Shown here in pieces: positions 12,413 through 58,944 of a DNA stretch of 58,968 bases (positions are counted from its first letter, which is position 1; each line of letters begins with the position of its first letter). The notes under the pieces were generated by a model that ran no database searches, was not told the origin of the DNA, and saw only the letters and a program-made list of their open reading frames with translations. The position numbers and the translations under genes were made by a program. This DNA comes from a virus, in the IMG/VR virus record IMGVR_UViG_3300044809_000038, positions 1-58,968 of that record; one strand, 5' to 3'.

Positions 12413-12522
12413 CAGAAGACTCCGTTCTCGCCGACGCCCCAGCAGTCCACTGCCAGGAACAGCACCGCCAGTAGCCAGGCGCCGAGCAGACAGAGTTTCG
12501 GCTGGCGCAACAGGATCGTCAC
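12412..12522 (-). CDS. 36-residue single-TM peptide
   Basis: A short ORF: MTILLRQPKLCLLGAWLLAV, then LFLAVDCWGVGENGVF. It starts as GTG overlapping the esterase stop (GTGA) and ends in TGATG with the glycosyltransferase. The tight coupling on both sides and the clear hydrophobic helix support it as a real gene. Function unknown. Confidence 0.6.
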   Translation of the reverse strand: MTILLRQPKLCLLGAWLLAVLFLAVDCWGVGENGVF

Positions 12523-13511
12523 CGGTCCACCAGCGTCCAGTGCGACCAGGCCAGCATGATCACGTCAGCCAGGGGCGACACGTACGACAGCTGGATGTCG
12601 TGGCCGCTCGATACCAGCACGGTCGTCAGGTGCGTGTGGAAGTAGGGCGCCTCCGACGCGCGGAACGTCGCCTGGCTGGCGCAGTTGTCGACGTCGGCTC
12701 CGCAGTAGTGATCGTCCGTGTTGCCGTCCATCAGCAGCACCGGTACCCGGATCTTGATGGACAGGGCGCCCTGGTCGGTCGGCCGGGTCTGCGCCTCACC
12801 CAGGGCCAGCGTGTCCTCCGTGGCCTCGTCGTAGGCGATGACGCGCGGATCAGCCTTCGTCGGGTCGTACACCAGCGCGGCGCGCGTGCCGGGCCTCGAC
12901 GTCAGGTAGCCGGCGTCGAGGCCGGCGAAGCGCTCCAGGTTGCTGGCTGGGTACGTCGTGGCCTTGCTGACGGCGTTGATGACCGAGGTCGTGGTGTGAC
13001 CTGAGCCGGTCAGGATCACCGCATCGGCGTCGTGCGGGTGGGCGGCCAGGTCGCCCTCGACGTACAGCGACCCGTAGCTGTGACCGACGAGCTCGACCGG
13101 ACCGGCGTGCAGCCGGCGAGCCTGCTGGATCACCTGGTGCAGCGCGTCGACCTGCACGGCGTAGGTGTCGTTCGCTGCCAGCTTCGGCCGGAACGAGGCG
13201 CCGTCGCCGATGCGATCGAGGTTCAGCGTGGCGTAGCCGGCTGCGTTCGCCTTGTCGACGTAGGAGTAGGCGCCGCCGAACTGCCGCCAATCCCAGTAGT
13301 CGTGGTTGTAGGTGCCGCCGTGCACCAGGACCTGCAACACCCGATTGGCGCGGCGGGGCACGCAGTACTGCGCCGACACCGCGCCCTGCGTTGTGCCGAG
13401 GCGCACTGTCGAGCAGCTGCGGCCATGGTCGGCTGCCTGGGCGACGGGACCGGCCAGCGGCAGTAGCGCCACCGCCAGCGCGACCGTCAGTAGCTTCTGT
13501 CGGATCTTCAT
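12519..13511 (-). CDS. Secreted alpha/beta-hydrolase (esterase/lipase)
   Basis: A 330-residue protein with a classical signal peptide (MKIRQKLLTVALAVALLPLA, cleavage near AQA-AD). The alpha/beta-hydrolase core shows an oxyanion HGGTYNHDYW motif, nucleophile elbow VGHSYGS (Ser of GHSYG), candidate Asp in LLMDGNTDDHYCG and His in LVSSGHDIQLS. It is predicted to be exported from the infected cell or carried with the particle and to hydrolyse an ester. Actinophage LysB enzymes cleave mycolyl esters, but they usually lack signal peptides, so this may instead act on envelope lipids or competing-phage receptors. AAGGAGAG precedes the ATG at 13511. Confidence 0.85.
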   Translation of the reverse strand: MKIRQKLLTVALAVALLPLAGPVAQAADHGRSCSTVRLGTTQGAVSAQYCVPRRANRVLQVLVHGGTYNHDYWDWRQFGGAYSYVDKANAAGYATLNLDRIGDGASFRPKLAANDTYAVQVDALHQVIQQARRLHAGPVELVGHSYGSLYVEGDLAAHPHDADAVILTGSGHTTTSVINAVSKATTYPASNLERFAGLDAGYLTSRPGTRAALVYDPTKADPRVIAYDEATEDTLALGEAQTRPTDQGALSIKIRVPVLLMDGNTDDHYCGADVDNCASQATFRASEAPYFHTHLTTVLVSSGHDIQLSYVSPLADVIMLAWSHWTLVDR

Positions 13512-14106: not shown

Positions 14107-14111
14107 GTCGA

Positions 14112-16541: not shown

Positions 16542-16560
16542 TTTTGTCTCCTGGTGACGG

Positions 16561-16597: not shown

Positions 16598-16602
16598 GCC
16601 TG

Positions 16603-16631
16603 ACTTTACACCCTTGCTAGGGGTGCGATTA
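16603..16631 (-). promoter_or_regulatory. Promoter/operator of the palindromic family (imperfect -35)
   Basis: -10 TAAAGT (16608-16603), spacer CACCCCTAGCAAGGGTG containing the shortened inverted repeat ACCC...GGGT, and a weak -35 TAATCG. The stop codon of the gene at 16629 overlaps the -35 region. Confidence 0.6.
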
Positions 16632-16901
16632 GACGGAGCCGCTCAAGCTGCCGCCGGCCGCGATGACTTCGCCCGCCTGCTGGAATGCCTCCTGGCTGGA
16701 CAAGATGATGGCCTGGAGCTCCTCCGCCGCTGCCTGGATCTGCTGGAGCCTGGGCGCGCACTGCTGTGCGACGATCTCGCCGGCCTGGGACATGTACCCG
16801 TTGCAGGCCTCGACCTGCCGCAGCACCTCCTGGCACGGCGCGGCGTTCAGCTCCTGGCTGGCGGCGATGATGGCGTTGGCGGCGTCTTCGATGTGACCCA
16901 T
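16629..16901 (-). CDS. MGxxDEAA-family small helical protein
   Basis: A 90-residue protein: MGHIEDAANAIIAASQELNA, then Gln-rich amphipathic helices (APRLQQIQAAAEELQAIILS, QEAFQQAGEVIAAGG). Contains two cysteines (PCQEV, EACNGY). Terminates in the promoter of the next unit. Part of the paralogue array; function unknown. Confidence 0.7.
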   Translation of the reverse strand: MGHIEDAANAIIAASQELNAAPCQEVLRQVEACNGYMSQAGEIVAQQCAPRLQQIQAAAEELQAIILSSQEAFQQAGEVIAAGGSLSGSV

Positions 16902-16905
16902 TTGC

Positions 16906-17175
16906 TCACTCTCCTGATATCGACATGCCCGCGCGCACGCGGTGCGATGCCGTTCGTAGTTGATCGTTCAGGTTGTAGATCAGCGGCAGCATCTGGTCGG
17001 TCAGCGCGACGATCTGCTGGAGGTCTTCGTTGAAGGCGTCGACCGCCGGCTGGCCGAGCAGAATGAGCGCGTCGTACACGGCGCCCAGGTCCTGTTTCTG
17101 GGCGTAGATGTGGCCGTTGTGCAGGATGCCTGACGTGCGCATCAGCAGGTCGGCAGCGTCGTCGAGCGCGCCCAT
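16906..17175 (-). CDS. MGxxDEAA-family small helical protein
   Basis: An 89-residue protein: MGALDDAADLLMRTSGILHN, followed by two helices (DLGAVYDALILLGQPAVDAF and QQIVALTDQMLPLIYNLNDQ). TGATG-type contact with its neighbour at 17175. Paralogue-array member. Confidence 0.7.
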   Translation of the reverse strand: MGALDDAADLLMRTSGILHNGHIYAQKQDLGAVYDALILLGQPAVDAFNEDLQQIVALTDQMLPLIYNLNDQLRTASHRVRAGMSISGE

Positions 17176-17432
17176 CAGGTCCCCCTTGAGGTGAGCTTGG
17201 CGACCTCGTCCAGCATTTCCTGGTAGGCCTGCCGCAGCATTTCGGCGTGCTGTTTGAGCGTCATCGCCGAGTGGCCGACACCGATGCCCCAGTGGCGCGA
17301 ATAGGCCTCACCGGCGACGTCGATGAACTGCTGAGCCGTTTCCAGCTCGTCGGCGATTCGGGCTATCACCTCGGGCTGCATCAGGTTGCCGGCCCGCACC
17401 AGCATCTGGGCGGCCTCGTCCGTACTACCCAT
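17175..17432 (-). CDS. MGxxDEAA-family small helical protein, first of the array
   Basis: An 85-residue protein: MGSTDEAAQMLVRAGNLMQP, then ARIADELETAQQFIDVAGEA and a C-terminal helix (KQHAEMLRQAYQEMLDEVAK). The ATG at 17432 has GAGAGG 9 nt upstream. It is the first coding gene after the tRNA-like region, so array and tRNA-like genes may share a transcript. The frame continues open upstream through the tRNA-like gene, but that extension has no coding character. Confidence 0.7.
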   Translation of the reverse strand: MGSTDEAAQMLVRAGNLMQPEVIARIADELETAQQFIDVAGEAYSRHWGIGVGHSAMTLKQHAEMLRQAYQEMLDEVAKLTSRGT

Positions 17433-17463
17433 TACGGGCCCCTCTCTCGGCTGTCTCGCACGG

Positions 17464-17551
17464 GGGGACGCCAGGATTCGAACCTGGAACCTCGGTCGCA
17501 CCGGTTGCCCGGCGGGCCCTGCCGCGCTCTGCCGCTTTGAGCTACGTCCCC
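17464..17551 (-). tRNA. tRNA-like gene 1, atypical anticodon region
   Basis: 88 nt on the minus strand. Acceptor GGGGACG/CGTCCCC is perfect, the D arm TAGCTCAAAGCGGCAGAGC is normal, and the T arm CCAGG-TTCGAAT-CCTGG is perfect. The 38 nt between D and T arms are abnormal: no 5-bp/7-nt anticodon arm with U33 is present. The best local fold is CGGC-AGGGCCC-GCCG followed by a CGGT-GCG-ACCG hairpin like a long variable arm. No 3' CCA is encoded. Isotype cannot be assigned. It shares an internal motif with tRNA-like gene 2. Confidence 0.6.
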
Positions 17552-22204: not shown

Positions 22205-22807
22205 CTACCAGCCGATGATCTCGGCGAGCCGCTCGGTGCAGCCCTGTAGTCCTGCCGAACCCAGGTTGCTCATCTCGTGCACGTGCAGCAGCGGGCGCTC
22301 CAGGGCGGCGTGCTCGGCGTATTCGAAGAAGTTGCGCGACCGCGTGAACTGCCCGCGCACCCATGATTCCTTCTGGTGACTGCCGCGCTCCTGGCAGCGG
22401 CGCTCGACGATGTCCGGCGACGCCGTGACCAGCACCACGTGCGCCTCGATCTCGGCTGCCATGAGCGCCTCTACGAAGCGGCGCACGCCGAGCCGGGCGC
22501 CCTCGCCGAGCAGCACGGGCGCCTCGGCCGCCGCGACCCCGCTGACGATCCACTCCTCGACCGGCACGATGGCGCTCATCGCCATGGCGTCGGTGCCGGG
22601 GAAGCCGGCCGGGTGCTTGCCGGCACGGGCGCCGAGCTCGACCGCGATGGCACCAGGATCGTGCCGATGGGCCGGCTGGAACAGCCACTCGCGGCGCGGC
22701 TGCCCCTCGTCGGGCGTGCTCTCGACCCGGCCGTAGGGACTCGTGAGGCGACTCATGATCGCCGACTTGCCGACCGCCGGGCCGCCGGTCAGGTACAGGG
22801 CCTTCAC
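22205..22807 (-). CDS. P-loop kinase, candidate hydroxymethyl-base DNA kinase
   Basis: A 200-residue protein with GTG start. P-loop LYLTGGPAVGKSA at residues 4-16; a Mg-binding/lid region is suggested by VVLVTASPDIVERRCQERG. It resembles small nucleotide kinases. In hypermodification clusters a P-loop kinase phosphorylates 5-hydroxymethyl groups on DNA so that an amino acid can replace the phosphate. Its place beside the dioxygenase, transferase-like and PLP genes supports that role; an ordinary nucleotide kinase remains possible. GTGA overlap with the PLP gene. Confidence 0.7.
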   Translation of the reverse strand: MKALYLTGGPAVGKSAIMSRLTSPYGRVESTPDEGQPRREWLFQPAHRHDPGAIAVELGARAGKHPAGFPGTDAMAMSAIVPVEEWIVSGVAAAEAPVLLGEGARLGVRRFVEALMAAEIEAHVVLVTASPDIVERRCQERGSHQKESWVRGQFTRSRNFFEYAEHAALERPLLHVHEMSNLGSAGLQGCTERLAEIIGW

Positions 22808-23700
22808 GCTTTCACCTTTGCTTTCGTGCCGATCTGGCCGCCCACGATCCACAGGGCGGTAGTGCCGTCGCGCCGCATCCACCAGGGCGGCTTCGTCTCG
22901 TCGAGATACCGGACGACCTTGCCTTCGTAGGTCGGGTGCAGGTCAATGCCATCAGCCTGACCTGGCATCCGCTGGGCGTAGCTGGCGTAGCGCATGGCGT
23001 GCAGGTCGATGACCTCGATGCGCACGGGTGTCAGGTCGAAGTCGACGCCGAGCCGGTCGAGGCGCTCGTGCAGCCAGGCGCGCCGGCTCGGGCCGATACC
23101 GACAAGCACGACGCGCCGAACGCCGACCGGGCCGTACCGGTGCAGGCCGTACAGCACGCCGGCCGCCGAGTTGCCTGAGCCGAAGGGGATCACCAGTGTC
23201 TCGACGTTCACCGGCAGGTTGTGCACCTGCTCGGCGGCGGAGCGATGGAACGCCTCGACGTCGGCCGGCGTGGCGTCGCCCGGCGGCGTGATGCCGTAGT
23301 TGAGCACGTAGGAGCCCGGCTCGTTCGCCTGGCGGATGCGCGCGGCCCGCTGGAGATACGGGTTGAAACCCACCGGCACGAACTCGAACTCGCCGCCGGC
23401 CGAGGCCGCGATGACGGGCGCGATGTGTCGCACGACTGTCTCAGGTCGGGTGGCGCCGTAGATCAGCGTGCAGGGCAGGCCCAGGTCGCGGGCCACGACG
23501 GCGGCCATGGCCGATTGTGGGCTGAGCACCGAGCTGGCCGAGACGATGCGGGTGGCGCCGCGCTCGGCGGCCAGCTGGAGCAGGTGTTGGCAGGCCCTCA
23601 GCTTCGAGCCGTTGACGCCGAAGTCTGCGCGATGATGATCTTCTCGTTTGTACCACCGCCCGTTGCGTAGCTCGACAGGGGTGAGGTTGACGGTGGGCAT
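22804..23700 (-). CDS. PLP-dependent enzyme, fold type II (ACC deaminase/D-cysteine desulfhydrase-like)
   Basis: A 298-residue protein. Candidate PLP-binding Lys33 in the motif VNGSKLRACQHLL, preceded by RWYKREDHH. The phosphate-binding loop IPFGSGNSAAGVLYGL lies around residues 165-180. Fold type II PLP enzymes catalyse beta-elimination, replacement and deamination. In phage DNA-modification pathways PLP enzymes trim or decarboxylate the amino acid attached to the base. ATG at 23700 has a GAAAGGA site. It overlaps the upstream frame by 103 nt, an unusually long overlap. Confidence 0.8.
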   Translation of the reverse strand: MPTVNLTPVELRNGRWYKREDHHRADFGVNGSKLRACQHLLQLAAERGATRIVSASSVLSPQSAMAAVVARDLGLPCTLIYGATRPETVVRHIAPVIAASAGGEFEFVPVGFNPYLQRAARIRQANEPGSYVLNYGITPPGDATPADVEAFHRSAAEQVHNLPVNVETLVIPFGSGNSAAGVLYGLHRYGPVGVRRVVLVGIGPSRRAWLHERLDRLGVDFDLTPVRIEVIDLHAMRYASYAQRMPGQADGIDLHPTYEGKVVRYLDETKPPWWMRRDGTTALWIVGGQIGTKAKVKA

Positions 23701-24785
23701 CGGTCGTCCTTTCTGGTGCCGAACGCGCCAGCGGCCACGCGGGCGCCGAAGTCGTTCTCGAAACACGGCCAGTCGCCGTCCATCACGATGACCTGGCCCG
23801 TGTTCAGGTAGTGGTTCTGCTTGTCCGGCACGACGCCGGGGTCCAGCGGGTTGCACTCCAGCCGTAGGCGCGGCGGCAGCTCGGCCGCGCGGGCGTCCCA
23901 GATGGCTTCGAAGCGGGTGCCGAACTTCGACTCGGCCCGCACGAGCCGGTTGTAGAGCAGGTCGTTGTAGACGTTGGGGTAGCGGCGCTTCGGCCGGTGC
24001 CAGCTCTTGTACGTGCACAGCGCCGACTCCAGCGTCAGGTAACCCACGTCCGGGTTGTCCGGGTTGCGCACCCTCGCAATCGACAACAGGTGCTCACCCA
24101 GGCGCTCCAGCTCGCCGAGCACCTCGGGCGGATAGTCGCCCCGAAAGTTCGGGTTGCGGTCCCACCAAATCCACTCGTCGAGGCCGTGCACCAGGGCCAG
24201 GCCATTGCGGTGGCTCTTGCTGCCGTCCTTGTCGCGCAGCAGCAGCGTGTCGGCGTCGGGCAACCAGTGTCGGCCGCGGGCGCCGACGCCGAGCAGCCGG
24301 ACGTACTCCAGGTAGCTCCAGGCGCTCAGCCGGCCCATGGTGTAGATCTCGTTGGCGGCCCGCCACACGCCGGTCCAGTCACCGGCGGCGGCATGGCGCC
24401 AGTACGCGTCCTGGCCGGCGCGCGTCAGGTTGAGGTAGCTGCCGACCGCCTCCGCGAACTTGCTTTTGTGGTAGCGGCGATCGGTGTCCCATTCGAGGTC
24501 GCGGTAGTGCTGCCGCCAGAACTTGACCACGCGGCCGGCCTGCTCGGGCCGGCTGCCCTGCTGCATCAGGAGCAGGGTCGTCACGGGGTTCTGCGTGTTG
24601 CCGTTGATGAACGCGGCCCAGGCGCGCTGCTCGACGTCCCAGTTCAGCTCACGGGCCAGGTAGGGCAGCACGTAGTAGACGGCGCCCGGATGGCTGCGGT
24701 AGCGCAGATGGAACGTGTAGAACCGCTGGAACACCTCGTGCCGGTACTGGGTGAGCCGGAAGTCGCTGCCGGCCTTCAGGTCCAT
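23598..24785 (-). CDS. Amino-acid:DNA transferase-like protein (aGPT-PPlase/ADDT superfamily)
   Basis: A 395-residue, largely helical protein: YRHEVFQRFYTFHLRYRSHP, GAVYYVLPYLARELNWD, WAAFINGNTQNPVTTLLL, WDTDRRYHKSKFAE, GRLSAWSYLEYVRLLG, KDGSKSHRNGLAL, CTYKSWHRPKRRYPNVYNDL. This pattern matches my recollection of phage proteins called amino acid:DNA transferases/alpha-glutamyl-putrescinyl-thymine pyrophosphorylases, which attach amino acids to activated 5-hydroxymethylpyrimidines in DNA. The final ~40 residues look like read-through into the PLP gene and may be non-essential. ATG 24785 (TGATG) preferred to GTG 24788. Confidence 0.65.
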   Translation of the reverse strand: MDLKAGSDFRLTQYRHEVFQRFYTFHLRYRSHPGAVYYVLPYLARELNWDVEQRAWAAFINGNTQNPVTTLLLMQQGSRPEQAGRVVKFWRQHYRDLEWDTDRRYHKSKFAEAVGSYLNLTRAGQDAYWRHAAAGDWTGVWRAANEIYTMGRLSAWSYLEYVRLLGVGARGRHWLPDADTLLLRDKDGSKSHRNGLALVHGLDEWIWWDRNPNFRGDYPPEVLGELERLGEHLLSIARVRNPDNPDVGYLTLESALCTYKSWHRPKRRYPNVYNDLLYNRLVRAESKFGTRFEAIWDARAAELPPRLRLECNPLDPGVVPDKQNHYLNTGQVIVMDGDWPCFENDFGARVAAGAFGTRKDDRCPPSTSPLSSYATGGGTNEKIIIAQTSASTARS

Positions 24786-25753
24786 CACGTCTCCAGTTGG
24801 TCGAGGTAGGCGTCTTCGATGGCGGTCGGATCACCGCTGAGCGCCGCGCCCGAGCGGCCACCAATCAGCCGGCCGGACTGCTTCTTGCGCATCGACGTCG
24901 CCGAGCGGCCGTTAGCCGGACTCAGATTCCCTTCGGCAACACGACTGGCAATGTCACGTTCGCGCTCGGTGCGCCGCCGTCGGGCGTAGGTGGCCTCGAC
25001 GGCGGCGCTGAAGCAGTCCTTCAGGCCACGGAGGGAGTAGTAGACGATGCTGTAGCGATAGCCGTCGACCGCGGTCTGGCGCATCGGCGTGACACCGTGG
25101 ACGAGCTGCTGGCCGGGGAAGAACACGGCCCAGCCGTCGCGGCACGGCACGACCAGGTCGTACTCGGGCACCGACAGGTAACCGCCGGTGACGCCTCGGC
25201 GCAGCACCGGCATCGCCGACCACACAGGGTAGTTGAACACGTCGCGGTGATAGGGCAGCTGTGCCGACCGGTTGATGACGCCGCTGGTGTAGTGCGTTTC
25301 GCCGAGCTTCCAATCAGCATCGACGGCCGCGACCGTGGAACGGTCGGCCTCGACCCGGTCGGGCACGATCTCGCGCAGCATGTCGATCAGCCGGCTGGCC
25401 CATTCGTCCAGGACGCGTTCGGTGTCCGGGTTGTCGATGGCCATGCTGGCCGGCTGGCAGCCCTCCCGGCCGTACAGCGGGCGCCGCGGTGTCCAGCCGA
25501 AGGTCCTGCTGGCGTTGCGCAGGCCGGCCCGGTACGCGGTGTAGCTGGCGCCGCTGGTGGCGAGCACGGCCCGGCGTAGGTCGCCGACCGCGGTACGGTC
25601 CAGCGGCAGGTAGGCCAGCACCGGTTCGCCCGTGTCGCCATCGACGACGAGCTGCGCCGAGTGGATGTTCGGCAGCAGCGTCGGCACGGTCTCGCCGATC
25701 ATCTTGCCGGCGACGTCGGCCGCCATGGTGCGGCCTGTCCCCACGAAGTCCAT
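24785..25753 (-). CDS. TET/JBP-family 2-oxoglutarate/Fe(II) dioxygenase
   Basis: A 322-residue protein. Double-stranded beta-helix core at ~160-250: QLPYHRDVFN supplies the HxD metal ligands (H169, D171), GGYLSVPEYDLVVPCRDG and VFFPGQQLVHGVTP supply the distal His (H219), and GYRYSIVYYSLRGLKDC supplies the 2-oxoglutarate Arg (R233). This arrangement is diagnostic of TET/JBP enzymes, which hydroxylate 5-methylcytosine or thymine in DNA. No cytosine C5-methyltransferase is encoded in the window, so thymine to 5-hydroxymethyluracil (JBP-like) is the more likely reaction. ATGA overlap with the ParB-like gene. Confidence 0.85.
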   Translation of the reverse strand: MDFVGTGRTMAADVAGKMIGETVPTLLPNIHSAQLVVDGDTGEPVLAYLPLDRTAVGDLRRAVLATSGASYTAYRAGLRNASRTFGWTPRRPLYGREGCQPASMAIDNPDTERVLDEWASRLIDMLREIVPDRVEADRSTVAAVDADWKLGETHYTSGVINRSAQLPYHRDVFNYPVWSAMPVLRRGVTGGYLSVPEYDLVVPCRDGWAVFFPGQQLVHGVTPMRQTAVDGYRYSIVYYSLRGLKDCFSAAVEATYARRRRTERERDIASRVAEGNLSPANGRSATSMRKKQSGRLIGGRSGAALSGDPTAIEDAYLDQLET

Positions 25754-26427: not shown

Positions 26428-26903
26428 CAGCCTTCGCTCTCGTCGGTGATGACCACGTAGAGGCGTGGCTCCTTGCTGTATTCCGAATCCTCGTGCCGAG
26501 AAACAATGCTCTGGCTGGCGCGGACGATGTGGCGCGAATTGTCGTCGGGCACGACGCCGTAGCCCACCAGGCAATCAATGATCGGCTTCAGGCTGGGCGC
26601 GATGTTGTCGGCGTCCATTTTGCGATTGTTGCCGGGATAGTAGACAAGCTCCACGCTGGCCTTTTCCAGGCGCAGCGGCGGCAGGTTAGCCTGCTTCGCC
26701 GAGAGCAGGGTGATCAGCTTGAGGTCGTTCTGCAAGTCGCGCAGCTGGGCCCAGTGCATCTTGCGCTGCTCGTTCGCGGTGATGGTGGGCCGGTCGATGA
26801 GCAGTCGTAGCTTCCATCGCCGCTGGCCGGGCGGTCGCTCGGGCGTAACCACGTGGGCACCCTTCATGCACCAGCAGCTCGTGGGCCGATGCGGTTGGCT
26901 CAT
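26427..26903 (-). CDS. RusA-like Holliday-junction resolvase
   Basis: A 158-residue protein. RusA signature: NRKMDADNIAPSLKPIIDCL, then GYGVVPDDNSRHIV, with the conserved acidic residues DxDN and DD. Cleaves branched recombination/replication intermediates; together with ERF and SSB (33.9-37.5 kb) it completes an annealing-resolution pathway. The ATG at 26903 is 6 nt after the -10 TATGGT, so translation is probably leaderless. First gene of the hypermodification operon. Confidence 0.85.
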   Translation of the reverse strand: MSQPHRPTSCWCMKGAHVVTPERPPGQRRWKLRLLIDRPTITANEQRKMHWAQLRDLQNDLKLITLLSAKQANLPPLRLEKASVELVYYPGNNRKMDADNIAPSLKPIIDCLVGYGVVPDDNSRHIVRASQSIVSRHEDSEYSKEPRLYVVITDESEG

Positions 26904-26909
26904 GGCGCT

Positions 26910-26938
26910 ACCATACACCCCTAAATGGGGTGCAGACG
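26910..26938 (-). promoter_or_regulatory. Promoter/operator before the RusA-hypermodification operon
   Basis: -10 TATGGT (26915-26910), spacer CACCCCATTTAGGGGTG (inverted repeat) and a weak -35 CGTCTG. Leaderless spacing of 6 nt to the ATG at 26903. The terminator at 26940 abuts it directly. Confidence 0.65.
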
Positions 26939-26939
26939 G

Positions 26940-26977
26940 GCCGGTGCCCCTCCGAATCCCGACGGAGGGGCACCGGC
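26940..26977 (-). terminator. Terminator hairpin after the 27 kb gene
   Basis: A perfect 15-bp repeat GCCGGTGCCCCTCCG / CGGAGGGGCACCGGC with an 8-nt loop. It lies 12 nt after the stop codon at 26990 and 1 nt before the next promoter. No U-tract. Confidence 0.8.
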
Positions 26978-26989
26978 GTGCGAGCCTAC

Positions 26990-28676: not shown

Positions 28677-29546
28677 TCAGATCAGGTACAGCGCACGCAG
28701 GGTGATCGGGCCCGCGATGCCGTCGACCGCCAGGTGGTCCCTGGACTGGAACTCGCGCACGACAGCTTCGGTGGCCGGTCCGAAGTCATTGTCCACGGCC
28801 AGGTGGCTGTAGGCCGGGTACTGCGTGTCGAGCGCCCGCTGAAGCACGCCGACGGCCGACCCGCGGTTGCCGCGCCGCAGGTAGGTGTTCGGCGGGAGCT
28901 TGCCGGTCACCGGGTGCGGCACGGGTGGTGGCCCAGGTGTCGGCGCCGGTGCGGGCGCACCCATCCGGATCATGTCGACGGCGGGCGTCCAACCGTTCTC
29001 GAACTGACTCTCGTCAACGTGACCCACGACGCCGGCCACGTTCGCCGAACTGGTGTTCTGCCACAGCTCGACGCCCGGATGACTCCAGGCCAGAGCTGAC
29101 GCGTACTGCGCCGGCCACAGCGACGTGTAGGCGTCGAACCAAGGATCGACGTTGAGCGTGTGCGTGAACAGGTAGACCCCGGAGTATGACCTGAACCAGG
29201 CGTGGCCCGTCCGGCTGCGGAACTGGTTGCGGAAGGCGACGTGCCAGGCCGGCGTGACGTTGGAGCCTTCGTCGTCCAGGACGGGCAGCAGTTCCCAGCG
29301 GGGCACCGACAGGTAGACGTCGGCGAAGTGGTTGGCTTCGGTGACGGGGTTGCCGTGGTCGGCGTAGTGGTAGGCGCCGCGCGGGATGCCTGCGGCGCCG
29401 GCTGCGGCGTAGTTGTCGCTCCAGTACGGGTTGACGTAGCCGTTGCCCTCGGTGAGCTTCTCGATCATGCCGAGCACGCCACCCGCCTTCGCGACCGGCC
29501 AATCCACGCGGCCTTGATAGCTGGCCACGTCCAGAATGAATCCCAT
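28677..29546 (-). CDS. lysA: Endolysin: GH25 muramidase with peptidoglycan-binding domain
   Basis: A 289-residue protein. GH25 catalytic domain at residues 1-~195: GFILDVASYQGRVDWPVAKA, GMIEKLTEGNGYVNPYW, GAYHYADHGNP, LLPVLDDEGSN, VELWQNTSSANVAGV. A Pro/Ala/Gly linker at ~210-225 is followed by a PG_binding_1 domain (LRRGNRGSAVGVLQRALDTQ, then DNDFGPATEAVVREFQ). Hydrolyses the glycan backbone of the host wall at lysis. AGGAGG precedes the ATG. No signal peptide, so it needs a holin, with the membrane protein at 38368 as a candidate. Confidence 0.9.
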   Translation of the reverse strand: MGFILDVASYQGRVDWPVAKAGGVLGMIEKLTEGNGYVNPYWSDNYAAAGAAGIPRGAYHYADHGNPVTEANHFADVYLSVPRWELLPVLDDEGSNVTPAWHVAFRNQFRSRTGHAWFRSYSGVYLFTHTLNVDPWFDAYTSLWPAQYASALAWSHPGVELWQNTSSANVAGVVGHVDESQFENGWTPAVDMIRMGAPAPAPTPGPPPVPHPVTGKLPPNTYLRRGNRGSAVGVLQRALDTQYPAYSHLAVDNDFGPATEAVVREFQSRDHLAVDGIAGPITLRALYLI

Positions 29547-29564: not shown

Positions 29565-29611
29565 GTGACCGGCCTGCCCGGTCGGGGGTATCAGGCGGGC
29601 AGGCCGGTCAC
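29565..29611 (-). terminator. Terminator hairpin after the helicase-loader gene
   Basis: A perfect 16-bp repeat GTGACCGGCCTGCCCG / CGGGCAGGCCGGTCAC with a 15-nt loop, 4 nt downstream of the stop codon at 29616. It separates the replication and lysis units; no recognisable promoter remains between it and the endolysin ATG, so lysA may depend on read-through. Confidence 0.8.
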
Positions 29612-29615
29612 GGTG

Positions 29616-30269
29616 CTACCAGGTCTCGCGAGCGATCACCTGAGGTGGCGCGCTGGTGATCCGCAGAACCTGGCAGTTCTCGGTGATGCGCCGGGCGATG
29701 CGGTCGCCGTAGCGCTCGGTGAGCTCACGGGAGCTCAGGTTGGTGGTCACGATCATGGGCAGCGAGCGCGCGTTGCGGTAGTTCGTGAGCCGGTACAGCT
29801 GCTCCAGGCTCCAGTCGGTGACCTTCTCGGCGCCCAGGTCGTCGATCAGCAGCACGGGCGTGAGCTGGAACGTGCCGATGTCGCTCGCCCCGTCGGCGTT
29901 CGGCCGCAGGCTGTCGATCAGCGATGCGACCTCGACGTAGGTCACCGGCACGCGGTGGTCCATCAGCAGCATCCGGGCCAGGGCGCTGGCCTCCCAGGTC
30001 TTGCCGACGCCGGCCGGGCCGACGATGACCATGTTGCGCCGCTGGCCGGCGAAGTAGCCCAGCAGCCAGCGTTCCGTCTCCGGGTGGCGCGGCTCGGCGC
30101 CGCGGTAGTTGTGCGGCAGGCGCGACAGCAGCACGCGCGACTTCTCCTCGCGCCACTCTTCGCGCGCCCGGTCCTCGGCTGCCTGCATCTCAGCGTCCGT
30201 GGCGAACCGGGTGCCGTGCCGGGCGATGAACTCGCTCAGGCGTGCATCCAGGTCTCGACTCGCGTTCAC
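29616..30269 (-). CDS. DnaC/IstB-like AAA+ ATPase (helicase loader)
   Basis: A 217-residue protein. Walker A GPAGVGKT (84-91), Walker B VLLIDDLG (139-146), sensor-1 VTTNLSSRELTERYGDRIAR. An N-terminal helical DNA/helicase-interaction region precedes the core. Such proteins load the host replicative helicase at the phage origin, which fits the absence of a phage helicase or polymerase. The GTG at 30269 lies 6 nt after -10 TATGCT, so this is a leaderless GTG start. Confidence 0.85.
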   Translation of the reverse strand: MNASRDLDARLSEFIARHGTRFATDAEMQAAEDRAREEWREEKSRVLLSRLPHNYRGAEPRHPETERWLLGYFAGQRRNMVIVGPAGVGKTWEASALARMLLMDHRVPVTYVEVASLIDSLRPNADGASDIGTFQLTPVLLIDDLGAEKVTDWSLEQLYRLTNYRNARSLPMIVTTNLSSRELTERYGDRIARRITENCQVLRITSAPPQVIARETW

Positions 30270-30275
30270 GTCCCA

Positions 30276-30304
30276 AGCATACCCCCCGAAATGGGGGTCC
30301 ACAC
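30276..30304 (-). promoter_or_regulatory. Promoter/operator before the helicase-loader gene
   Basis: -10 TATGCT (30281-30276) and an inverted repeat (GGACCCCCATTTCGGGGGG) in the spacer, with a poorly conserved -35 (GTGTGG). Leaderless spacing to the GTG at 30269. Confidence 0.6.
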
Positions 30305-30330
30305 CTGCATTCACGGTGAACTCTTCCTGC

Positions 30331-31233
30331 TCAGAAGTACGTGGGCGTCGGCTCGGCGTTCGCCGCCGCTTCCGCCTCCTCGGCGGCCACCCCGTCCCAG
30401 TAGTCCTGGTTGCTGATGTTGAGCGTCGTGCCACCGTTGGCGACCGGCCGCGACGCCGGCTCGTCCAGCCAGCAGTCCTGGTTGAGCCAGGTCGAGGGAT
30501 GCTTGGTGTAGGTCTTGTCCTGGCCGGCGCGCTCGCCCGCGTACCGCCGGCAGCCTTCCATGATCAACTCCGGATTAGCTCCACGCCGGATCGCCGCCAA
30601 CCAGGAGCGCTCCGCGCCCTTGCGTCCTACGTGCCTCGGGTAGAGCGCGTAGAACGCAGCGAAGCCGACGAGCGGGTCGGGCTTCGGCTCTGGGCTGCCC
30701 TTCGGTTCTGGCTCCAGGTCGGGGAGCAGGCTCGCCTGGCCGTCGCTCGACTCGTCGAGCAAGATCTGTTGATCAGTTTGGTCTTCTGGTAGATCATTGA
30801 TCTTCTTCGAAGAACTGGTCTTCTTATGTTCCGGGTTTTCCCCGGTTGGGGATGGCCCGCGCTGGGCTTCCCCGCCTAGGTCGCTCGGCCTAACCTGGAT
30901 TTTCTGGGTTAGGGCCTCTCGCTCCTCCGTGCTGAACTCGATATCGCTGATCAGGAGCTGTGTGCCTACCCGGTGGCCGAGCTTGTTGCGCACCTCGTTG
31001 CGGATCAGGAAGCCGAGCTTCTCCAGCTCGCGCAGGCAGTTGCCGACCGTGTCCGGATTGATGTGCAACACCTTGCCGACCGACTGGTGAGTGATCTCGA
31101 AGTCGACCGTGTTGGACATCAGGTAGCAGGCCACGTGGAAGGTGTGGCCGCTGCGGTATGGGCGCCGGATGAAGCTGTTCGCGACCTTCGTGTGCCGCTC
31201 TGGCCGGACGTACCGGCGGGCCGTCATCGCCAT
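30331..31233 (-). CDS. Replication-initiator-like helix-turn-helix protein
   Basis: A 300-residue protein. N-terminal winged helix (VANSFIRRPYRSGHTFHVAC, HQSVGKVLHINPDTVGNCLR, ELEKLGFLIRNEVRN) is followed by an acidic, low-complexity linker (~125-195). The C-terminal domain (FAAFYALYPRHVGRKGAERS, TYTKHPSTWLNQDCWLDE) is found in phage DnaD/O-type replication proteins. Encoded immediately upstream of the helicase loader, as typical initiator-loader pairs are. Start at 31233 (TGATG). Confidence 0.75.
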   Translation of the reverse strand: MAMTARRYVRPERHTKVANSFIRRPYRSGHTFHVACYLMSNTVDFEITHQSVGKVLHINPDTVGNCLRELEKLGFLIRNEVRNKLGHRVGTQLLISDIEFSTEEREALTQKIQVRPSDLGGEAQRGPSPTGENPEHKKTSSSKKINDLPEDQTDQQILLDESSDGQASLLPDLEPEPKGSPEPKPDPLVGFAAFYALYPRHVGRKGAERSWLAAIRRGANPELIMEGCRRYAGERAGQDKTYTKHPSTWLNQDCWLDEPASRPVANGGTTLNISNQDYWDGVAAEEAEAAANAEPTPTYF

Positions 31234-34337: not shown

Positions 34338-35318
34338 TCAGATATCGAACGCGTGCCGCCACAGCGGCAAGGTGTGTTTGATGCTGAACTTCTCGGCATA
34401 TCGACGAGCCGCCGCGCCCATTTCCAGCCGCATCGCCTCGTCGTGCACGAGGTCGTTCACATAGGCGTACGCCTCGGCGCTTGATCGGTACAGGTAGCCG
34501 GTGACTCCGTGGTACACCGCCTCGGTGTACGGCTCGATCTTGCGGGCCACGATCGGTATCCCGAGCGCCGCCATCTCCATCGCCTTGATGGCCGACTTGC
34601 TGGCATTGAACACGTGGCGCTGGAGCGGTATGACCGCAACGTCGAAATCGATCGTCCGCAGGTACGCCTCGACGCCGCTGACCCACGGCGTGTGCCGCAC
34701 GTTCGGCTCGTCACTCGGTACCCAGGCCGACTGCCCGCCGATCACGTGTGTCTCGACGCCGTCACGCGCTGCCCAGTGTGCCCACCAGGGCTTCATCCAG
34801 GCGACGTCCATGGCGTGCGTGTCGCTGCCCGCCCAGCCGATCACAGTCCGGTCGCGCCGCGGTCGCTCGTGGCTCAGCAGCCAGTCGGGTACCGCGTTCG
34901 GCACCGGCACGATGTCGTCGTTGTACTTCCCCAGAGCCTGCGCCAGCGACCTGGTGCTCACCGTGACCCGATCGGCCAGGGCCAGCCCCAGCTCCAGCGT
35001 GCGGAGCACCTCGGGCCGCGAGTACACCTGATAGGCCGGCGATGACGGGTCGACGTGGAACAGGTCATCGTCAAGGTCGACCACCAGGCGCGGCGTCGCC
35101 CGGCCGGCCCACTCCTGCCAATACGTCGCCACCTCGGGATCGGCGATCCGCTGGCCGAACAGGACGCCGCTACTGGTGACGTCCTGTTCGTAGATGCGGT
35201 GCCGGTACGTGACGTCGTCGCCGGCCGCAGTCATCGCCTCGAACGGCACCTTGACCCGGTAGTAGGCGCAGCCGTCGGTCTCCGGATCAGCCGAACACCA
35301 GCCGAACACCGCGGCCAT
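34338..35318 (-). CDS. Glycosyltransferase, GT-B/GT4-like
   Basis: A 326-residue protein. N-terminal domain [37 protein letters not shown]-terminal domain [51 protein letters not shown]. Similar to phage and bacterial GT4 proteins using nucleotide sugars. Its location between SSB and ERF, away from the other GTs, makes DNA (for example hydroxymethylated bases) a plausible acceptor. This is inference. ATGA-type coupling upstream. Confidence 0.8.
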
Positions 35319-52827: not shown

Positions 52828-54633
52828 TCAGGAGTTGATGAACGCGGCGTTGATCGTGCCCACCGTGGCGCCGGTCGGCTGGCCGGTGAACATGCCCAGG
52901 CGCAGCGACTCGATACCGCGGAAGGCCAGGCCCTCGAAGTTCTCGGTGAAGGTGCGGTACCGGTTGCGCGCGTTGAGCGCCGAGTCCCGCACCAGGCCCA
53001 GGTCGAGGGTGCCGCCGTCGAGGTACAGCCAGTCGCCGGTCGCGTACAGCGCCGAGTCGACCATGGTCGGGAACAGCGGGACGACCGCGCCGGCCGCGCC
53101 GTTGTTGTAGAACTGCTGCGGGATGGTCTGGCCCGCCGAGCCGCCGACCTGCGTCGAGGACAGGCCGTCCAGGTGCCACACGACGTTGACGCCGCGCGCC
53201 CGGAACCAGCCCATGATCATCTCGTCAGCGACGGCCATGGCCTCCAGGTCGTAGCTGAAGCCGCGCGTCATGTCCGCCCGGACCAGGTCCAGGACCCAGC
53301 GCGGCGCGACCCACGTCAGCGGCACCATCGTGTCGAGGCGGTGCCGGTTGCGGTAGTAGGCCACGGCCCGGTCCATCGTCACCAGAATGTCGCGCGCCGA
53401 GCTGACGTTGCCGCCGTTGCTGGTGGCGCCGGGCTGCACGAACGTCGCGCCCGGACCGAGCATCAGCTTCGAGCCGGGGTCACCAGTCTGGGTGCCGTCG
53501 GTCGAACCGTTCAGCAGCCTGGTCAGCAGCTGGTTCTCGGCGAACCGCGCCGCCGCGACCAGCGCGGCCTGCGTGGTGGCGTCGGCCCACTCCGGGTCGA
53601 ACCGGCTGGTGAAGTTCGGGAACTCCAGGCACAGGTACGTGCTGTAGACGCTGGCCGACAGCAGGCCGGGGCAGTTGACGACCGCGCAGCCCTTCTGGGT
53701 GGCTGCGTCGGAGCTGGACACGTTGACGTCGTCCGTCGCCGTCCAGATACCGAGACCGCCCGTGTGGCCCGACTCGCCGAGCACGTCGGAACCGAGCGCG
53801 TCGAACGGCGGCCGATAGGTGATGCCGCCGCGCTCCACCTGGAACCGGTTGAGCGAATTCATCACCGGTCGGTTGGTGATGCCGATGTTGTCGATGTCGT
53901 ACAGGATCTCCAGCGGTGCGCAGTACCCGCCGGCCGCGACGATCGCCGTCGGCTCCTGGCCGGCCTCGATCTTCCGGGTGTTCGTCGCCCAGGTCGCGTC
54001 CTTCTGGAGTACGCGGTCCTCGGGGTAGGTGAGCTGGAAGCTCACCACGTCGTGGCGGCTGCCATCAGAGCCGGCGCCCGAGACGAACACGGCGTTCATC
54101 TTGTTGGCCATAGCCTCGGCGAGCTGCTCGCGGTCGACCTCGGCGCCCGTGGTGAAGTGCGGCACGTTGCCGGACAGGACCCGCTTGGCGTTGATGACGC
54201 CTACGGCCGTCTCGGGTGAGCGCGCCTGGGTGGCGGCGCCGAGCGGTGCCCGCCCGGCCGCTGCGGTGACCGCGGTCGTGCCGTCGGGCTTCTTGCTGGT
54301 GGGACTGGTCTTGTGGCCCTTGGACTCCTCCAAGTCCTGCGCCAGGTCGCCGTCGATCGGGTCGCCGCCGTTGTCCGACTTCATCGCCAGGTCGGCGTCA
54401 GCGGTGCCGACCTCGGCGAGCGCGGCGGCGCGGCTGGCGGCCAGCTCGGCGCGCCGGCTCAGCTCGGCCTTGATCTGCTTCGCCTGGTCGGCGTAGCCCA
54501 CCAGCGTGTCGACGTCTTCCTTCGAGGTCGCGGCGGACAGCTCGGCTGCCTGCCCCTGAAGGTGCGTCAGCCCCGCGGACAGTTCGGCGTCGGTCGCCTT
54601 GTCCAGTGCGGCGAGAAGGGCTTCGATATCCAC
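52828..54633 (-). CDS. Major capsid protein, HK97-fold, with N-terminal scaffold-like region
   Basis: A 601-residue protein, GTG start. Residues 1-~115 are helical and charged (LTHLQGQAAELSAATSKEDV, DQAKQIKAELSRRAELAASR), like a delta/scaffold domain that the maturation protease could remove. Residues ~170-600 form the capsid fold: ATNTRKIEAGQEPTAIVAAG, YCAPLEILYDIDNIGITNRP, MNSLNRFQVERGGITYRPPF, FAENQLLTRLLNGSTDG, VPLTWVAPRWVLDLVRADMT, RNRYRTFTENFEGLAFRGIE. AGGAG 7 nt before the GTG. Confidence 0.92.
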   Translation of the reverse strand: MDIEALLAALDKATDAELSAGLTHLQGQAAELSAATSKEDVDTLVGYADQAKQIKAELSRRAELAASRAAALAEVGTADADLAMKSDNGGDPIDGDLAQDLEESKGHKTSPTSKKPDGTTAVTAAAGRAPLGAATQARSPETAVGVINAKRVLSGNVPHFTTGAEVDREQLAEAMANKMNAVFVSGAGSDGSRHDVVSFQLTYPEDRVLQKDATWATNTRKIEAGQEPTAIVAAGGYCAPLEILYDIDNIGITNRPVMNSLNRFQVERGGITYRPPFDALGSDVLGESGHTGGLGIWTATDDVNVSSSDAATQKGCAVVNCPGLLSASVYSTYLCLEFPNFTSRFDPEWADATTQAALVAAARFAENQLLTRLLNGSTDGTQTGDPGSKLMLGPGATFVQPGATSNGGNVSSARDILVTMDRAVAYYRNRHRLDTMVPLTWVAPRWVLDLVRADMTRGFSYDLEAMAVADEMIMGWFRARGVNVVWHLDGLSSTQVGGSAGQTIPQQFYNNGAAGAVVPLFPTMVDSALYATGDWLYLDGGTLDLGLVRDSALNARNRYRTFTENFEGLAFRGIESLRLGMFTGQPTGATVGTINAAFINS

Positions 54634-55012: not shown

Positions 55013-55506
55013 CAGTGCTCCTCGTCTTCGAGCCGGTGGAACGACACTCCCATGGACATGACCAGGTTGGCGCCCAGGTTCAGGCACTCGGTGAAGGCCC
55101 TGCTCGGATCGTCGTACTCGGTCTGGATGGCGTCAACAATGCGCACAGCGGCAGCGAGGTCGCCGCGCATCGAGCACTCGAAGAAGGCCTGCATCGCCGA
55201 GTGGCCGAGCTCGCGGCGTGCATCCTCCAGCGGCGCGACGTGCACGTGTGCGTCTTCGCGTGTGCGGTCCTGGATCAGGTTGCCGATCTCCCACAGGACC
55301 TCCTTGGCGGCCTGGAACGGCATCGGCGTGTCGCAGTGCGCAGTGAGGCTGAACAGGCAGCGGGCGACCATGGCCGGCGCGACGGGCGGCAGGCCGCCAG
55401 CGTCTTCGCTGCAATGGGCGATGCCGGCCAGGAGCGCGAGATGGCTGACGTGCCCGTTGATGGACTCGGCTTCGGTCTGGCGCTCGGCGAACGGGTTGGC
55501 CTGCAT
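55012..55506 (-). CDS. Hypothetical 164-residue protein
   Basis: Helical protein: ESINGHVSHLALLAGIAHCS, APAMVARCLFSLTAHCDTPM, QAAKEVLWEIGNLIQDRTRE, LNLGANLVMSMGVSFHRLED. Several cysteines, no signal peptide. Coupled to the secreted glycanase gene by ATGA, so it may act in the same step. No recognisable family. Confidence 0.6.
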   Translation of the reverse strand: MQANPFAERQTEAESINGHVSHLALLAGIAHCSEDAGGLPPVAPAMVARCLFSLTAHCDTPMPFQAAKEVLWEIGNLIQDRTREDAHVHVAPLEDARRELGHSAMQAFFECSMRGDLAAAVRIVDAIQTEYDDPSRAFTECLNLGANLVMSMGVSFHRLEDEEH

Positions 55507-56615
55507 CACTTCTCCACGGTGGCGTTGAGCAGGTCGACAGCGCTGGCCTGCGTTGAGGTGTTCAGGCCACGCGGCGCGGCGGCCCAGGACTGGCCGTAGA
55601 ACGCACCCGCGGCCTGGTCGTGCTTGATCATGGTGTCGGCCTGCCGGTCGAGGTAGGCGGTCAGCGGTCGGTCGGCGAGCGCCCGGTTGAGCTGGCCCCA
55701 GCCGCGCACCGCCGCGCCCTTGAATGTCCAGCCGTCGGCCGCGCACGTCCCGGTGTCCTCGCACACGTCCTTCAGCGTGCCGCCAGGGTTCAAGAAGGCG
55801 CTCGTGGTGCTGGCGGTCGCCAGCCGGCGCGCGATCGTCAGGTAAGGACCCAGGCCGGTTGCGCGGGCCATCGCCGCGAGCGCCGCCGCGACCGTGCCCT
55901 GGTTGTAGCTCCAGGGCGGCCCGGCCGGCCGACAGTTCTCCAGGTGGTCGAGCACCATGCCGTCGGCGCGGACGAGGCCGCTACGGCTCAGCCACTGCCA
56001 TGCCGACCGGGCACGGTCGAGGTACGCGCGCTGGCCGGTGATCGTGAACAGGCTCGCCGAGAGCTGCACGTACAGCGCGTTCGTGATCGAACCCTTCTGG
56101 TCGCCGTTGTGGATGAACGGCAACGCCCATGTGACGCCCCCGCCACAGCTCGACGTCCAGCCGCCAGCCATGAAGTCGTCATCCACCTCGGCCACGTGCA
56201 GGAACAGCGGCTCGCCGGTCGCCCGGTAGGCGTCGAGCCAGGCCAGCGCCCACCAGCCGGCATCATCGTGGTAGTTACCGGTGAAGAACGGGCCCTGCTT
56301 GTTGACGTTGCGGTTCCACGTGTTGTCGATCATCGCGACCGGCACGGGCTGGCCCAGGGCACGAGCGCCGTCGATCACGGTCGTCAGCGTGTTCGCGCTC
56401 GACCACCAACCCGACGTCACGATCGGCCACAGGCCGGTCTGCCAGCTGTATTCGCCCTCCAGCGTCTTGAGCGCGGCGGCGTCGGCCGCCCGGTAGTCGA
56501 CGACCCTCACGATCACGCGCGCCGGCACGGTGTCGCCCTGCGCGGTCATCGGGTAGCCGGCGATCGTCAACGCCAGCGCGGTCAGCGCCAGCGTCCAGCG
56601 GACTGCGGTCCTCAT
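55506..56615 (-). CDS. Secreted glycoside hydrolase family 76-like (alpha-1,6-mannanase type)
   Basis: A 369-residue protein with an N-terminal signal peptide (MRTAVRWTLALTALALTIAG). The (alpha/alpha)6-barrel core shows GH76 features: NVNKQGPFFTGNYHDDAGWW with the catalytic-type Asp pair D117-D118, GGVTWALPFIHNGDQKGSIT (the family SxxGGxxW-type loop), and PWSYNQGTVAAALAAMARAT. GH76 enzymes cleave alpha-1,6-mannan, which in actinomycetes includes lipomannan/lipoarabinomannan cores. A phage copy could digest host surface glycan to free progeny or to remove receptors. No carbohydrate-binding module. The repeated leader precedes the ATG. Confidence 0.8.
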   Translation of the reverse strand: MRTAVRWTLALTALALTIAGYPMTAQGDTVPARVIVRVVDYRAADAAALKTLEGEYSWQTGLWPIVTSGWWSSANTLTTVIDGARALGQPVPVAMIDNTWNRNVNKQGPFFTGNYHDDAGWWALAWLDAYRATGEPLFLHVAEVDDDFMAGGWTSSCGGGVTWALPFIHNGDQKGSITNALYVQLSASLFTITGQRAYLDRARSAWQWLSRSGLVRADGMVLDHLENCRPAGPPWSYNQGTVAAALAAMARATGLGPYLTIARRLATASTTSAFLNPGGTLKDVCEDTGTCAADGWTFKGAAVRGWGQLNRALADRPLTAYLDRQADTMIKHDQAAGAFYGQSWAAAPRGLNTSTQASAVDLLNATVEK

Positions 56616-56639: not shown

Positions 56640-56646
56640 AGCGGTC

Positions 56647-56673
56647 GGCCGGGCGACGGAGTGTCGCCCGGCC
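56647..56673 (-). terminator. Hairpin before the GH76 gene
   Basis: A perfect 11-bp repeat GGCCGGGCGAC / GTCGCCCGGCC with a 5-nt loop, 12 nt after the stop codon at 56686. Separates the 84-residue gene from the glycanase gene. Confidence 0.7.
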
Positions 56674-56685
56674 TGGTTCGGTCGA

Positions 56686-56940
56686 TCAGTTGTTGCCGTA
56701 GTGCTCCGGGCCGTTGCACAGGGAGAGCGACAGGCCGTGCGGGCACGTCGGGTACATCACTTCGAGCAGCTGCGGGTAGCGGTGTTCGTTGATCTGGTCG
56801 TCGCCCTCCAGCTCACTGAAGTCGTGAGTGGCGGCCTTGCGGGTGAAGAAGTCGATGGCCATGGCCTCGGCCAGCGGGCCCTCGAAGGTGACGACGTAGG
56901 TCTGGTGAGCGGCGCAGACGTTGGCCAGCAGCTTGATCAT
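56686..56940 (-). CDS. Conserved small actinophage protein
   Basis: An 84-residue protein beginning MIKLLANVCAAHQTYVVTFE. The C-terminus (YPTCPHGLSLSLCNGPEHYG) matches a motif recurrent in small actinophage proteins of unknown function and may bind a metal through CPH...C...H. First gene after the promoter at 56981-57009; repeated leader before the ATG. Confidence 0.7.
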   Translation of the reverse strand: MIKLLANVCAAHQTYVVTFEGPLAEAMAIDFFTRKAATHDFSELEGDDQINEHRYPQLLEVMYPTCPHGLSLSLCNGPEHYGNN

Positions 56941-56980: not shown

Positions 56981-57009
56981 ACTTTACACCCCGGTCCGGG
57001 GTCTGTCTA
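56981..57009 (-). promoter_or_regulatory. Promoter with palindromic operator in the spacer
   Basis: -35 TAGACA (57009-57004), spacer GACCCCGGACCGGGGTG, -10 TAAAGT (56986-56981). Drives the 84-residue gene and probably the glycanase region. Confidence 0.8.
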
Positions 57010-57151
57010 GCGCTGCGCGTCTCAGCCCTCCAGGGTTCGGGGTGTGTCTAGTCGGAGGCTCGCGCCAGCGCGGCGGCCACAGTCGCGGGTACTCGCAACC
57101 GCAGTAGCCGCCCTCGATCTCGCGCTCATCTTCCCGCCACTGCTCGGTCAC
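56984..57151 (-). CDS. Possible 55-residue protein reading into the promoter
   Basis: GTG start at 57151 overlaps the upstream stop (GTGA). The first ~30 codons look coding (MTEQWREDEREIEGGYCGCE, then YPRLWPPRWREPP), after which the frame crosses the half-operator and the promoter and stops in the -10. The CGC pair and coupling are in favour; the tail is probably fortuitous. Confidence 0.45.
   Translation of the reverse strand: MTEQWREDEREIEGGYCGCEYPRLWPPRWREPPTRHTPNPGGLRRAALDRPRTGV
57034..57050 (-). promoter_or_regulatory. Orphan half of the promoter/operator motif
   Basis: The -35 and first arm (TAGACACACCCCGAACC on the minus strand) match the family exactly, but the second arm and -10 are missing (GGCTGA at the -10 position). 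It lies 41 nt upstream of the complete copy. Possibly a decayed promoter or an extra regulator-binding half-site. Confidence 0.55.
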
Positions 57152-57492
57152 CGACGTCGGACCGCCTTCTTACGAGTCCGGCGCTCGCCGCCCTTCGTCG
57201 TCTTCGCGAACCCGTAGCCCGTGGTGTTCTTGCTCCACTTGTGGGCCATCGGGCACGTCAGGGCGTGGCGCAGGTACAGCGGCAGGCCGGCCGCGCGCAT
57301 CCCGTCGGCGGCCAGCTTCGTCGGCCGGCCCAGCAGCAGCTCGCGACCGCGCGGCGTCAACGTCAAGTTGCCATTGGGCTGCGGCTCGGCCGTCACCGGG
57401 AATCGTGACTCGTCCTCGGTGACCCAGACGATGTCTGCCGGGCAGTGCGTGCACTTGCGCACGAAGTCAAAGATCGCATCGGGAACGCTCAC
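57148..57492 (-). CDS. Hypothetical basic protein with Cys motif
   Basis: A 114-residue protein with GTG start at 57492 (GTGA coupling). CTHCPADIVWVTEDESRFP suggests a small zinc-binding N-terminus. It continues NGNLTLTPRGRELLLGRPTK, LYLRHALTCPMAHKWSK, ending in a basic tail (RRTRKKAVRRR). This is a common actinophage small-protein pattern; function unknown. Confidence 0.65.
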   Translation of the reverse strand: MSVPDAIFDFVRKCTHCPADIVWVTEDESRFPVTAEPQPNGNLTLTPRGRELLLGRPTKLAADGMRAAGLPLYLRHALTCPMAHKWSKNTTGYGFAKTTKGGERRTRKKAVRRR

Positions 57493-58481: not shown

Positions 58482-58723
58482 ATCAGCTCCTCGACCTTGA
58501 CCGTGACCCGGAAGCGCTGGCGGTCGGCCGGCGGGTCGCCCTCTCGCACCAGGCTGGTGAACTCGTAGACGTCGTCACCCGACGTGTCGAGCAGCCGCAC
58601 CCGCCACTGAATCGGCTCGCCATTCGGGCCCGTCCCGCCATCGTCGGCGCCCGTGTAGCCCTGGAACCACTGCTGCAACGTGCCCTTGGCGAAGTCGGTG
58701 ACCGTCTCCAGGCTGATCCTCAC
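58478..58723 (-). CDS. Hypothetical 81-residue protein
   Basis: Beta-rich protein: MRISLETVTDFAKGTLQQWF, EPIQWRVRLLDTSGDDVYEF, QRFRVTVKVEELM. ATGA coupling on both sides. No family recognised. Confidence 0.6.
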   Translation of the reverse strand: MRISLETVTDFAKGTLQQWFQGYTGADDGGTGPNGEPIQWRVRLLDTSGDDVYEFTSLVREGDPPADRQRFRVTVKVEELM

Positions 58724-58944
58724 AACGCCACTCCCGCCTCCAGGTCGATCACGCGGGCCCGTAGCCGGCGCTCAACGTCAGCCAGGACCTGAGCCGCCGT
58801 CAGTGCGTTCTCGTACATCCGCTTCGGCGCCGACTTGGCCAGCCGGTGGGCGCGTTCCCGCTGCTCGCCGGCCTCCTTCTTGTAGTGGTCGAGCTGCTGC
58901 TCCAGCTCGGCCACTACAGCGGCGCGCGCATCGTCGATCTTCAC
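58720..58944 (-). CDS. Coiled-coil protein, paralogue of the contig-end gene
   Basis: A 74-residue protein, GTG start overlapping the stop at 58941: MKIDDARAAVVAELEQQLDH, then EQRERAHRLAKSAPKRMYEN and VERRLRARVIDLEAGVAL. It aligns along its whole length with the product of the split gene (positions 286-1 plus 58968-58941), so the two are adjacent tandem duplicates once the contig is closed. Confidence 0.75.
   Translation of the reverse strand: MKIDDARAAVVAELEQQLDHYKKEAGEQRERAHRLAKSAPKRMYENALTAAQVLADVERRLRARVIDLEAGVAL

Follow-up and report, generated by a model that had tools for sequence, protein, structure and literature searches.

A moron-like GH76 gene in the structural module of an actinophage and its possible role at the host surface

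We report a gene for an enzyme of family GH76 that lies beside the capsid gene of an uncultured phage of soil-type actinobacteria, in an IMG/VR virus record of 58,968 bp (the whole of this stretch is referred to as the window). Glycoside hydrolases are already known as phage cargo; as a GH76 member this one is ordinary, and only its place is, as far as our searches reach, without precedent. The boldest reading of the data, with a probability of about 0.4, is that the phage secretes a mannanase that strips lipoglycan or capsule from living host cells or from debris, clearing receptors and envelope by means of a GH family that would be new to phages. The coordinates of the relevant features are collected in Table 1.

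The GH76 gene and its product

The original prediction had placed a secreted GH76-type mannanase at this locus, with a signal peptide and an HDDAGWW catalytic pair; the gene, its GH76 assignment, the signal peptide and the motif were borne out, with the gene on the minus strand. The GC content of the frame by codon position is 0.63/0.56/0.92, and it holds a single, terminal in-frame stop versus 17 and 4 stops in the strand's two alternative frames, which identifies it as a real coding frame. A purine-rich ribosome-binding site precedes the start (gagaaggaagaacc-ATG), and codon usage correlates with that of the rest of the phage at r 0.965 (the median of 32 genes is 0.967). Pfam PF03663 (GH76) matches with 136 bits against a curated cut-off of 25.9 (E 2.6e-39), while phmmer searches of the PDB returned CtGH76 (E 1.2e-28), Lin0763 (E 1.2e-20), Salegentibacter GH76A (1e-17) and Bacillus circulans Aman6 (7e-17). 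Homology therefore supports the alpha-1,6-mannanase type, with mannosidic hydrolysis as the predicted activity.

Inspection of the N-terminus revealed the n-, h- and c-regions and the cleavage motif of a signal peptide (MRTAVRW / TLALTALALTIAGYPM / TAQG-D), and the protein is predicted from its sequence to be exported from the infected cell. An AlphaFold2 model, built on an alignment of 35 sequences, has a pLDDT of 86 and a pTM of 0.85, with low confidence over residues 1-36. A structural aligner superimposed the model on CtGH76 with a Z score of 47.5 and an rmsd of 1.6 Å over 326 residues, and gave Z scores of 43.2 to ShGH76 and 40 to Aman6. As modelled, the protein has the (alpha/alpha)6 fold of GH76.

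The HDDAGWW motif spans residues 116-122 and contains the GH76 DD motif. In the alignments, W70/W71 correspond to CtGH76 W110/W111, and D223 to D268 of the -2 subsite; the active-site and -1/-2 subsite residues of CtGH76 have been described (PMC12295086). The phage protein keeps 91 of the 130 columns conserved among 34 bacterial homologs, even though its branch is very long. Because the core active-site columns are among those retained, we judged an inactive relic unlikely; the fold is complete, and the catalytic and -1/-2 subsite residues are intact. The remaining 39 columns are altered, and specificity may therefore have shifted. We infer that the enzyme cleaves alpha-1,6-mannan via its Asp pair.

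Table 1. Coordinates of the GH76 gene, its cassette and other features in the window
Feature	Position	Strand	Remarks
GH76 ORF, 369 aa	55506..56615	minus	ATG start; signal peptide ~1-27, catalytic domain ~40-367
GH76 signal peptide, codons 1-27 (MRTAVRWTLALTALALTIAGYPMTAQG)	56535..56615	minus	Predicted Sec type I, from sequence
Catalytic pair codons D117-D118, motif HDDAGWW	56262..56267	minus	Invariant in 35 aligned sequences; equivalent to CtGH76 D163/D164
Conserved phage gene bounding the cassette upstream	57148..57492	minus	58% identical in the sister contig
Promoter/operator repeat TAGACA-(17-base spacer holding ACCCCGGACCGGGGT)-TAAAGT	56981..57009	minus	Ahead of the cassette
84-aa gene, upstream partner of GH76 in the inserted cassette	56686..56940	minus	No homolog in the sister contig
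11-bp perfect hairpin GGCCGGGCGAC-ACTCC-GTCGCCCGGCC	56646..56673, +/- 1-2 bases	minus	z -3.6
164-aa phage gene	55012..55506	minus	ATG overlaps the GH76 stop (TGATG); ortholog adjoins the capsid gene in the sister contig
Major capsid protein	52828..54633	minus	phrog_777, E 4e-59; marks the viral structural module
Endolysin, GH25 + PG-binding	28677-29546		
Secreted alpha/beta-hydrolase, StnA-related	12519..13511	minus	Signal peptide; nucleophile motif GHSYG

The phage and its cargo

The carrier encodes capsid, portal, protease, terminase, tape measure, tail and endolysin genes. We regard it as an actinophage because the relatives of its proteins occur in phages of Gordonia, Microbacterium, Mycobacterium, Arthrobacter and Rhodococcus. 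Its sister contig, G001, measures 58,843 bp and encodes a capsid protein with 68% identity; the two are largely collinear, as a circular permutation, so both contigs are probably near-complete. Searches of the carrier contig revealed neither a tyrosine integrase nor a resolvase, and its length is close to that of the sister, which makes a lytic life likely and the long feeding of a lysogen less so. A capsid-profile search for the host among 397 genomes of one order turned up just four matches, all of them distant, and the tetranucleotide signatures of the carrier gave no decision.

On the minus strand, the order is the conserved gene at 57492-57148, the 84-aa gene, the hairpin, GH76, 55506-55012, 55012-54779 and the capsid gene. 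The genes that flank the cassette are present in the sister at 58%, 34% and 52% identity, and in the sister's slot an unrelated 84-aa ORF (13548-13802) replaces both the 84-aa gene and GH76. A GH76 gene is missing from all 11 related contigs, of which several measure 54-59 kb. The gene is moron-like phage cargo, found in this phage but not in its syntenic relatives.

One copy of a promoter/operator repeat precedes the cassette, upstream of the 84-aa gene, and there is none at the sister's slot. The window has five copies of the repeat, whose consensus is TAGACA..ACCCCGnnnCGGGGTGTARAGT (minus strand, at 57009, 33863, 19423, 11178 and in the 734 region), and the sister has five as well (at 50023, 35166, 32194, 28379 and 25774), all of them in the direction of the genes. 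Its palindrome overlaps the -10 element, it is common to two phages only ~68% alike in capsid, and it is likely to be a phage-wide repressor or activator site. The 11-bp hairpin lacks a U-run and sits between the 84-aa gene and GH76, before GH76 rather than after it; it might be an attenuator, a terminator or a processing element, and from its position 5' of GH76 it could lower expression. Hairpins without U-runs are also found in the intergenic gaps at 8620-8781 and 26868-26989, with perfect or near-perfect stems of 20 and 15 bp.

Several further features of the window were recorded. A 791-aa protein at 1062-3437 (minus) matches PHROGs for an RNA ligase (at its N-terminus), a portal and a head maturation protease, and we read it as a fused or multi-domain head protein. 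ARAGORN identified a tRNA-Ala (ggc) of 90 bases at 17462-17551 (minus), upstream of a row of small genes (10146-10484 and 15515-17432, minus) whose products of 83-170 aa have similar starts (MGs.dEAA...) and which look like tandem paralogs. The end genes at 1-286 and 58720-58944 resemble each other (DEARAAVVAELERQ... and DDARAAVVAELEQQ...) and may mark a repeat where the assembler cut a circular genome. The phage also has a likely DNA hypermodification set (22205-25753, minus, and also 34338-35318, 11690-12412 and 14112-14714), which includes a P-loop nucleotide kinase 3 (PF18751), an amino acid:DNA transferase ADDT (PF18724) and three glycosyltransferases, of which one has a further match to a PHROG labelled DNA methyltransferase. 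A match to the TET/JBP-type oxygenase PF12851 is weak and below the cut-off, and PHROGs labels the same gene queuine tRNA-ribosyltransferase. Because of this likely set, the three glycosyltransferases need not decorate a surface.

The secreted esterase that had been predicted at 12519 is real (Table 1). Its best solved relative is StnA (E 5e-37), a streptonigrin methylesterase involved in antibiotic tailoring (PMC5225493), and it has homologs in several actinomycete genomes. The original prediction went on to propose that the phage releases two envelope-degrading enzymes and that its host has a mannan- and ester-decorated surface. Neither proposal found support: the esterase resembles StnA, and for GH76, whose closest relatives are secreted by soil actinomycetes, the alpha-mannan of fungi is just as plausible a target. 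The viral-contig scan, which depends on short conserved peptides, found no relatives of the esterase, and a search of the related contigs, run without a positive control, did not find it either. The slot at 12519-14118 (minus) and its counterpart in the sister (29599-30946) lie between two glycosyltransferase genes and hold exported or membrane cargo made up of different proteins. The sister encodes a 278-aa signal-peptide protein there, together with a protein weakly similar to Mycobacterium membrane proteins (Mycobact_memb-like), so that exported cargo seems to be exchanged at this slot.

Rarity and origin

A tblastn search of 50,697 phage records returned one GH76 match only, in a Listeria contig, and no convincing second phage GH76. 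The match, ‘Listeria phage LM 4-11-1’, was rejected as an unverified and unannotated 1.9-kb contig with 26.5% identity and no phage genes shown. No relative of GH76 emerged from pattern scans that covered 2.9 million viral contigs; the scans need short conserved peptides, which limits their sensitivity, and they therefore show that GH76 is rare rather than absent. Among the viral models of BFVD, Foldseek retrieved nothing that resembles GH76 (best TM ~0.5), and a full-text literature search of incomplete coverage found no title or abstract on phage GH76. Together with the 0 of 11 related contigs, these results uphold the earlier description of the gene as an unusual phage cargo.

The best cellular relatives, ~44-48% identical over the catalytic domain, are secreted GH76 enzymes of Streptomyces, Pseudonocardiaceae, Micromonosporaceae and Kribbella. 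In the GH76 tree, the phage protein stands on a very long branch next to that of a Kutzneria MAG, a weakly supported grouping (91/57) that does not settle the donor. Homologs of the phage esterase occur in 7 of the 20 genomes that hold GH76 relatives, five of the seven being Pseudonocardiaceae, and the sequences hint that the donor or the host may be Pseudonocardiaceae-like.

Substrate and role

We favour an alpha-1,6-mannose lipoglycan of the host (LM/LAM type) or a mannan capsule as the substrate, at somewhat less than even odds. The lytic-looking actinophage carries in its structural module a moron-like cassette made up of an operator-bearing promoter, the 84-aa gene, the hairpin and GH76. 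The enzyme would be exported during infection via the host Sec system and would cut alpha-1,6-mannan through the Asp pair, most likely in the LM/LAM-type lipoglycan or mannan capsule of the host. The surface would then be thinned, or phage binding sites destroyed on the infected cell and on debris, before and at lysis. We favour a host surface substrate since the mycobacterial GH76 LamH cleaves LM/LAM (PMC11233589), since lipoarabinomannan is known in Gordonia, Rhodococcus and Amycolatopsis (PMC4365757), groups that are infected by related phages or have homologs of the cargo enzymes, and since a lytic phage would gain more from a changed surface than from feeding. Against this substrate, the cellular enzymes most closely related to that of the phage are secreted by saprophytes, and fungal mannan is the substrate of some characterised GH76 enzymes, according to work cited in PMC11233589. 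The 39 altered columns and the hairpin ahead of the gene also count against this reading.

The main rival to a host mannan is that the gene is an auxiliary metabolic gene, whose secreted product degrades fungal or yeast alpha-mannan in soil so that the mannose feeds the infected cell or the population. We consider this a serious but doubtful possibility. The closest relatives are the secreted GH76 enzymes of soil actinomycetes, GH76 enzymes of Salegentibacter and Bacteroides are cited in PMC11233589 as degrading fungal mannan, and there is precedent in the functional GH5 endomannanase and GH75 chitosanase carried by soil phages (PMC6786970, PMC9485262). However, slow extracellular foraging would bring little gain to a lytic phage without an integrase, the phage protein lacks the ~150-aa N-terminal region of most relatives, and carbohydrate-binding or transport genes were not noted in the window. 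A role in the virion or in lysis, in which GH76 would work with the GH25 endolysin at release or entry, for example by opening a mannan-rich outer layer, is unlikely. The gene does lie in the structural module beside the capsid gene and in the same direction, and the phage encodes an endolysin with a PG-binding part, but GH76 is distant from the tail module, and its own signal peptide and its absence from the 11 related contigs argue that it is no conserved part of the virion.

A shifted activity on the GH76 fold, such as Dfg5-like transfer or action on a non-mannan glycan, would fit the 39 altered columns and a clade profile that is nearest to the fungal CtGH76, an enzyme whose biological substrate is unsettled. 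We rate it as very unlikely, given that the core residues of the alpha-1,6-mannosyl subsites, as named for CtGH76, are retained and that Dfg5 resembles the model less than do CtGH76 and hydrolases such as ShGH76. The joining of a bacterial GH76 gene to a phage contig by assembly or contamination is close to negligible in probability. The contig is metagenomic and the gene lies <3.5 kb from its end, but orthologs are syntenic with the sister on both sides, the TGATG overlap couples GH76 to the next phage gene, a phage promoter repeat stands ahead of the cassette and codon usage matches; we therefore rejected a chimera.

Should the host surface be its target, GH76 would be a natural means for a phage to attack actinobacterial lipoglycans (lipomannan, LAM), and it would allow a test of whether receptors are cleared by exported phage enzymes. 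If it is fungal mannan that is cut, alpha-mannan would join the polymers to whose breakdown soil phages contribute.

Among known systems, the GH76 enzymes of actinomycetes (Kutzneria MAG L014, Amycolatopsis, Phytohabitans and Streptomyces) fall in the same clade as the phage protein, have a signal peptide and share the invariant DD, WW, YNQG and CGGG motifs. They are cellular, the phage branch is far longer than theirs, and most of them have an extra N-terminal region of ~150-170 aa that the phage protein lacks; the Kutzneria enzyme, like that of the phage, consists of a signal peptide and catalytic domain only. CtGH76 from Chaetomium thermophilum (PDB 9R4K) is the closest solved structure and has the same catalytic and -1/-2 subsite residues, but it is fungal, is 31% identical to the phage protein and has an unsettled natural substrate. 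The alpha-1,6-mannanases Aman6 (B. circulans) and ShGH76 (Salegentibacter) have the same fold and Asp pair, but their identity is 23-25% and they come from free-living degraders. The mycobacterial LamH (Rv0365c), to which the phage enzyme is likened by description, belongs to the same family and makes actinobacterial LM/LAM a GH76 substrate (PMC11233589), but it is a bacterial housekeeping enzyme in which a signal peptide is not detectable. The GH5 endomannanase and GH75 chitosanase of soil phages are likewise phage-encoded polysaccharide hydrolase cargo, with proven activity, but they belong to other families, act on other linkages (beta-1,4-mannan and chitosan) and have a proposed role in carbon degradation.
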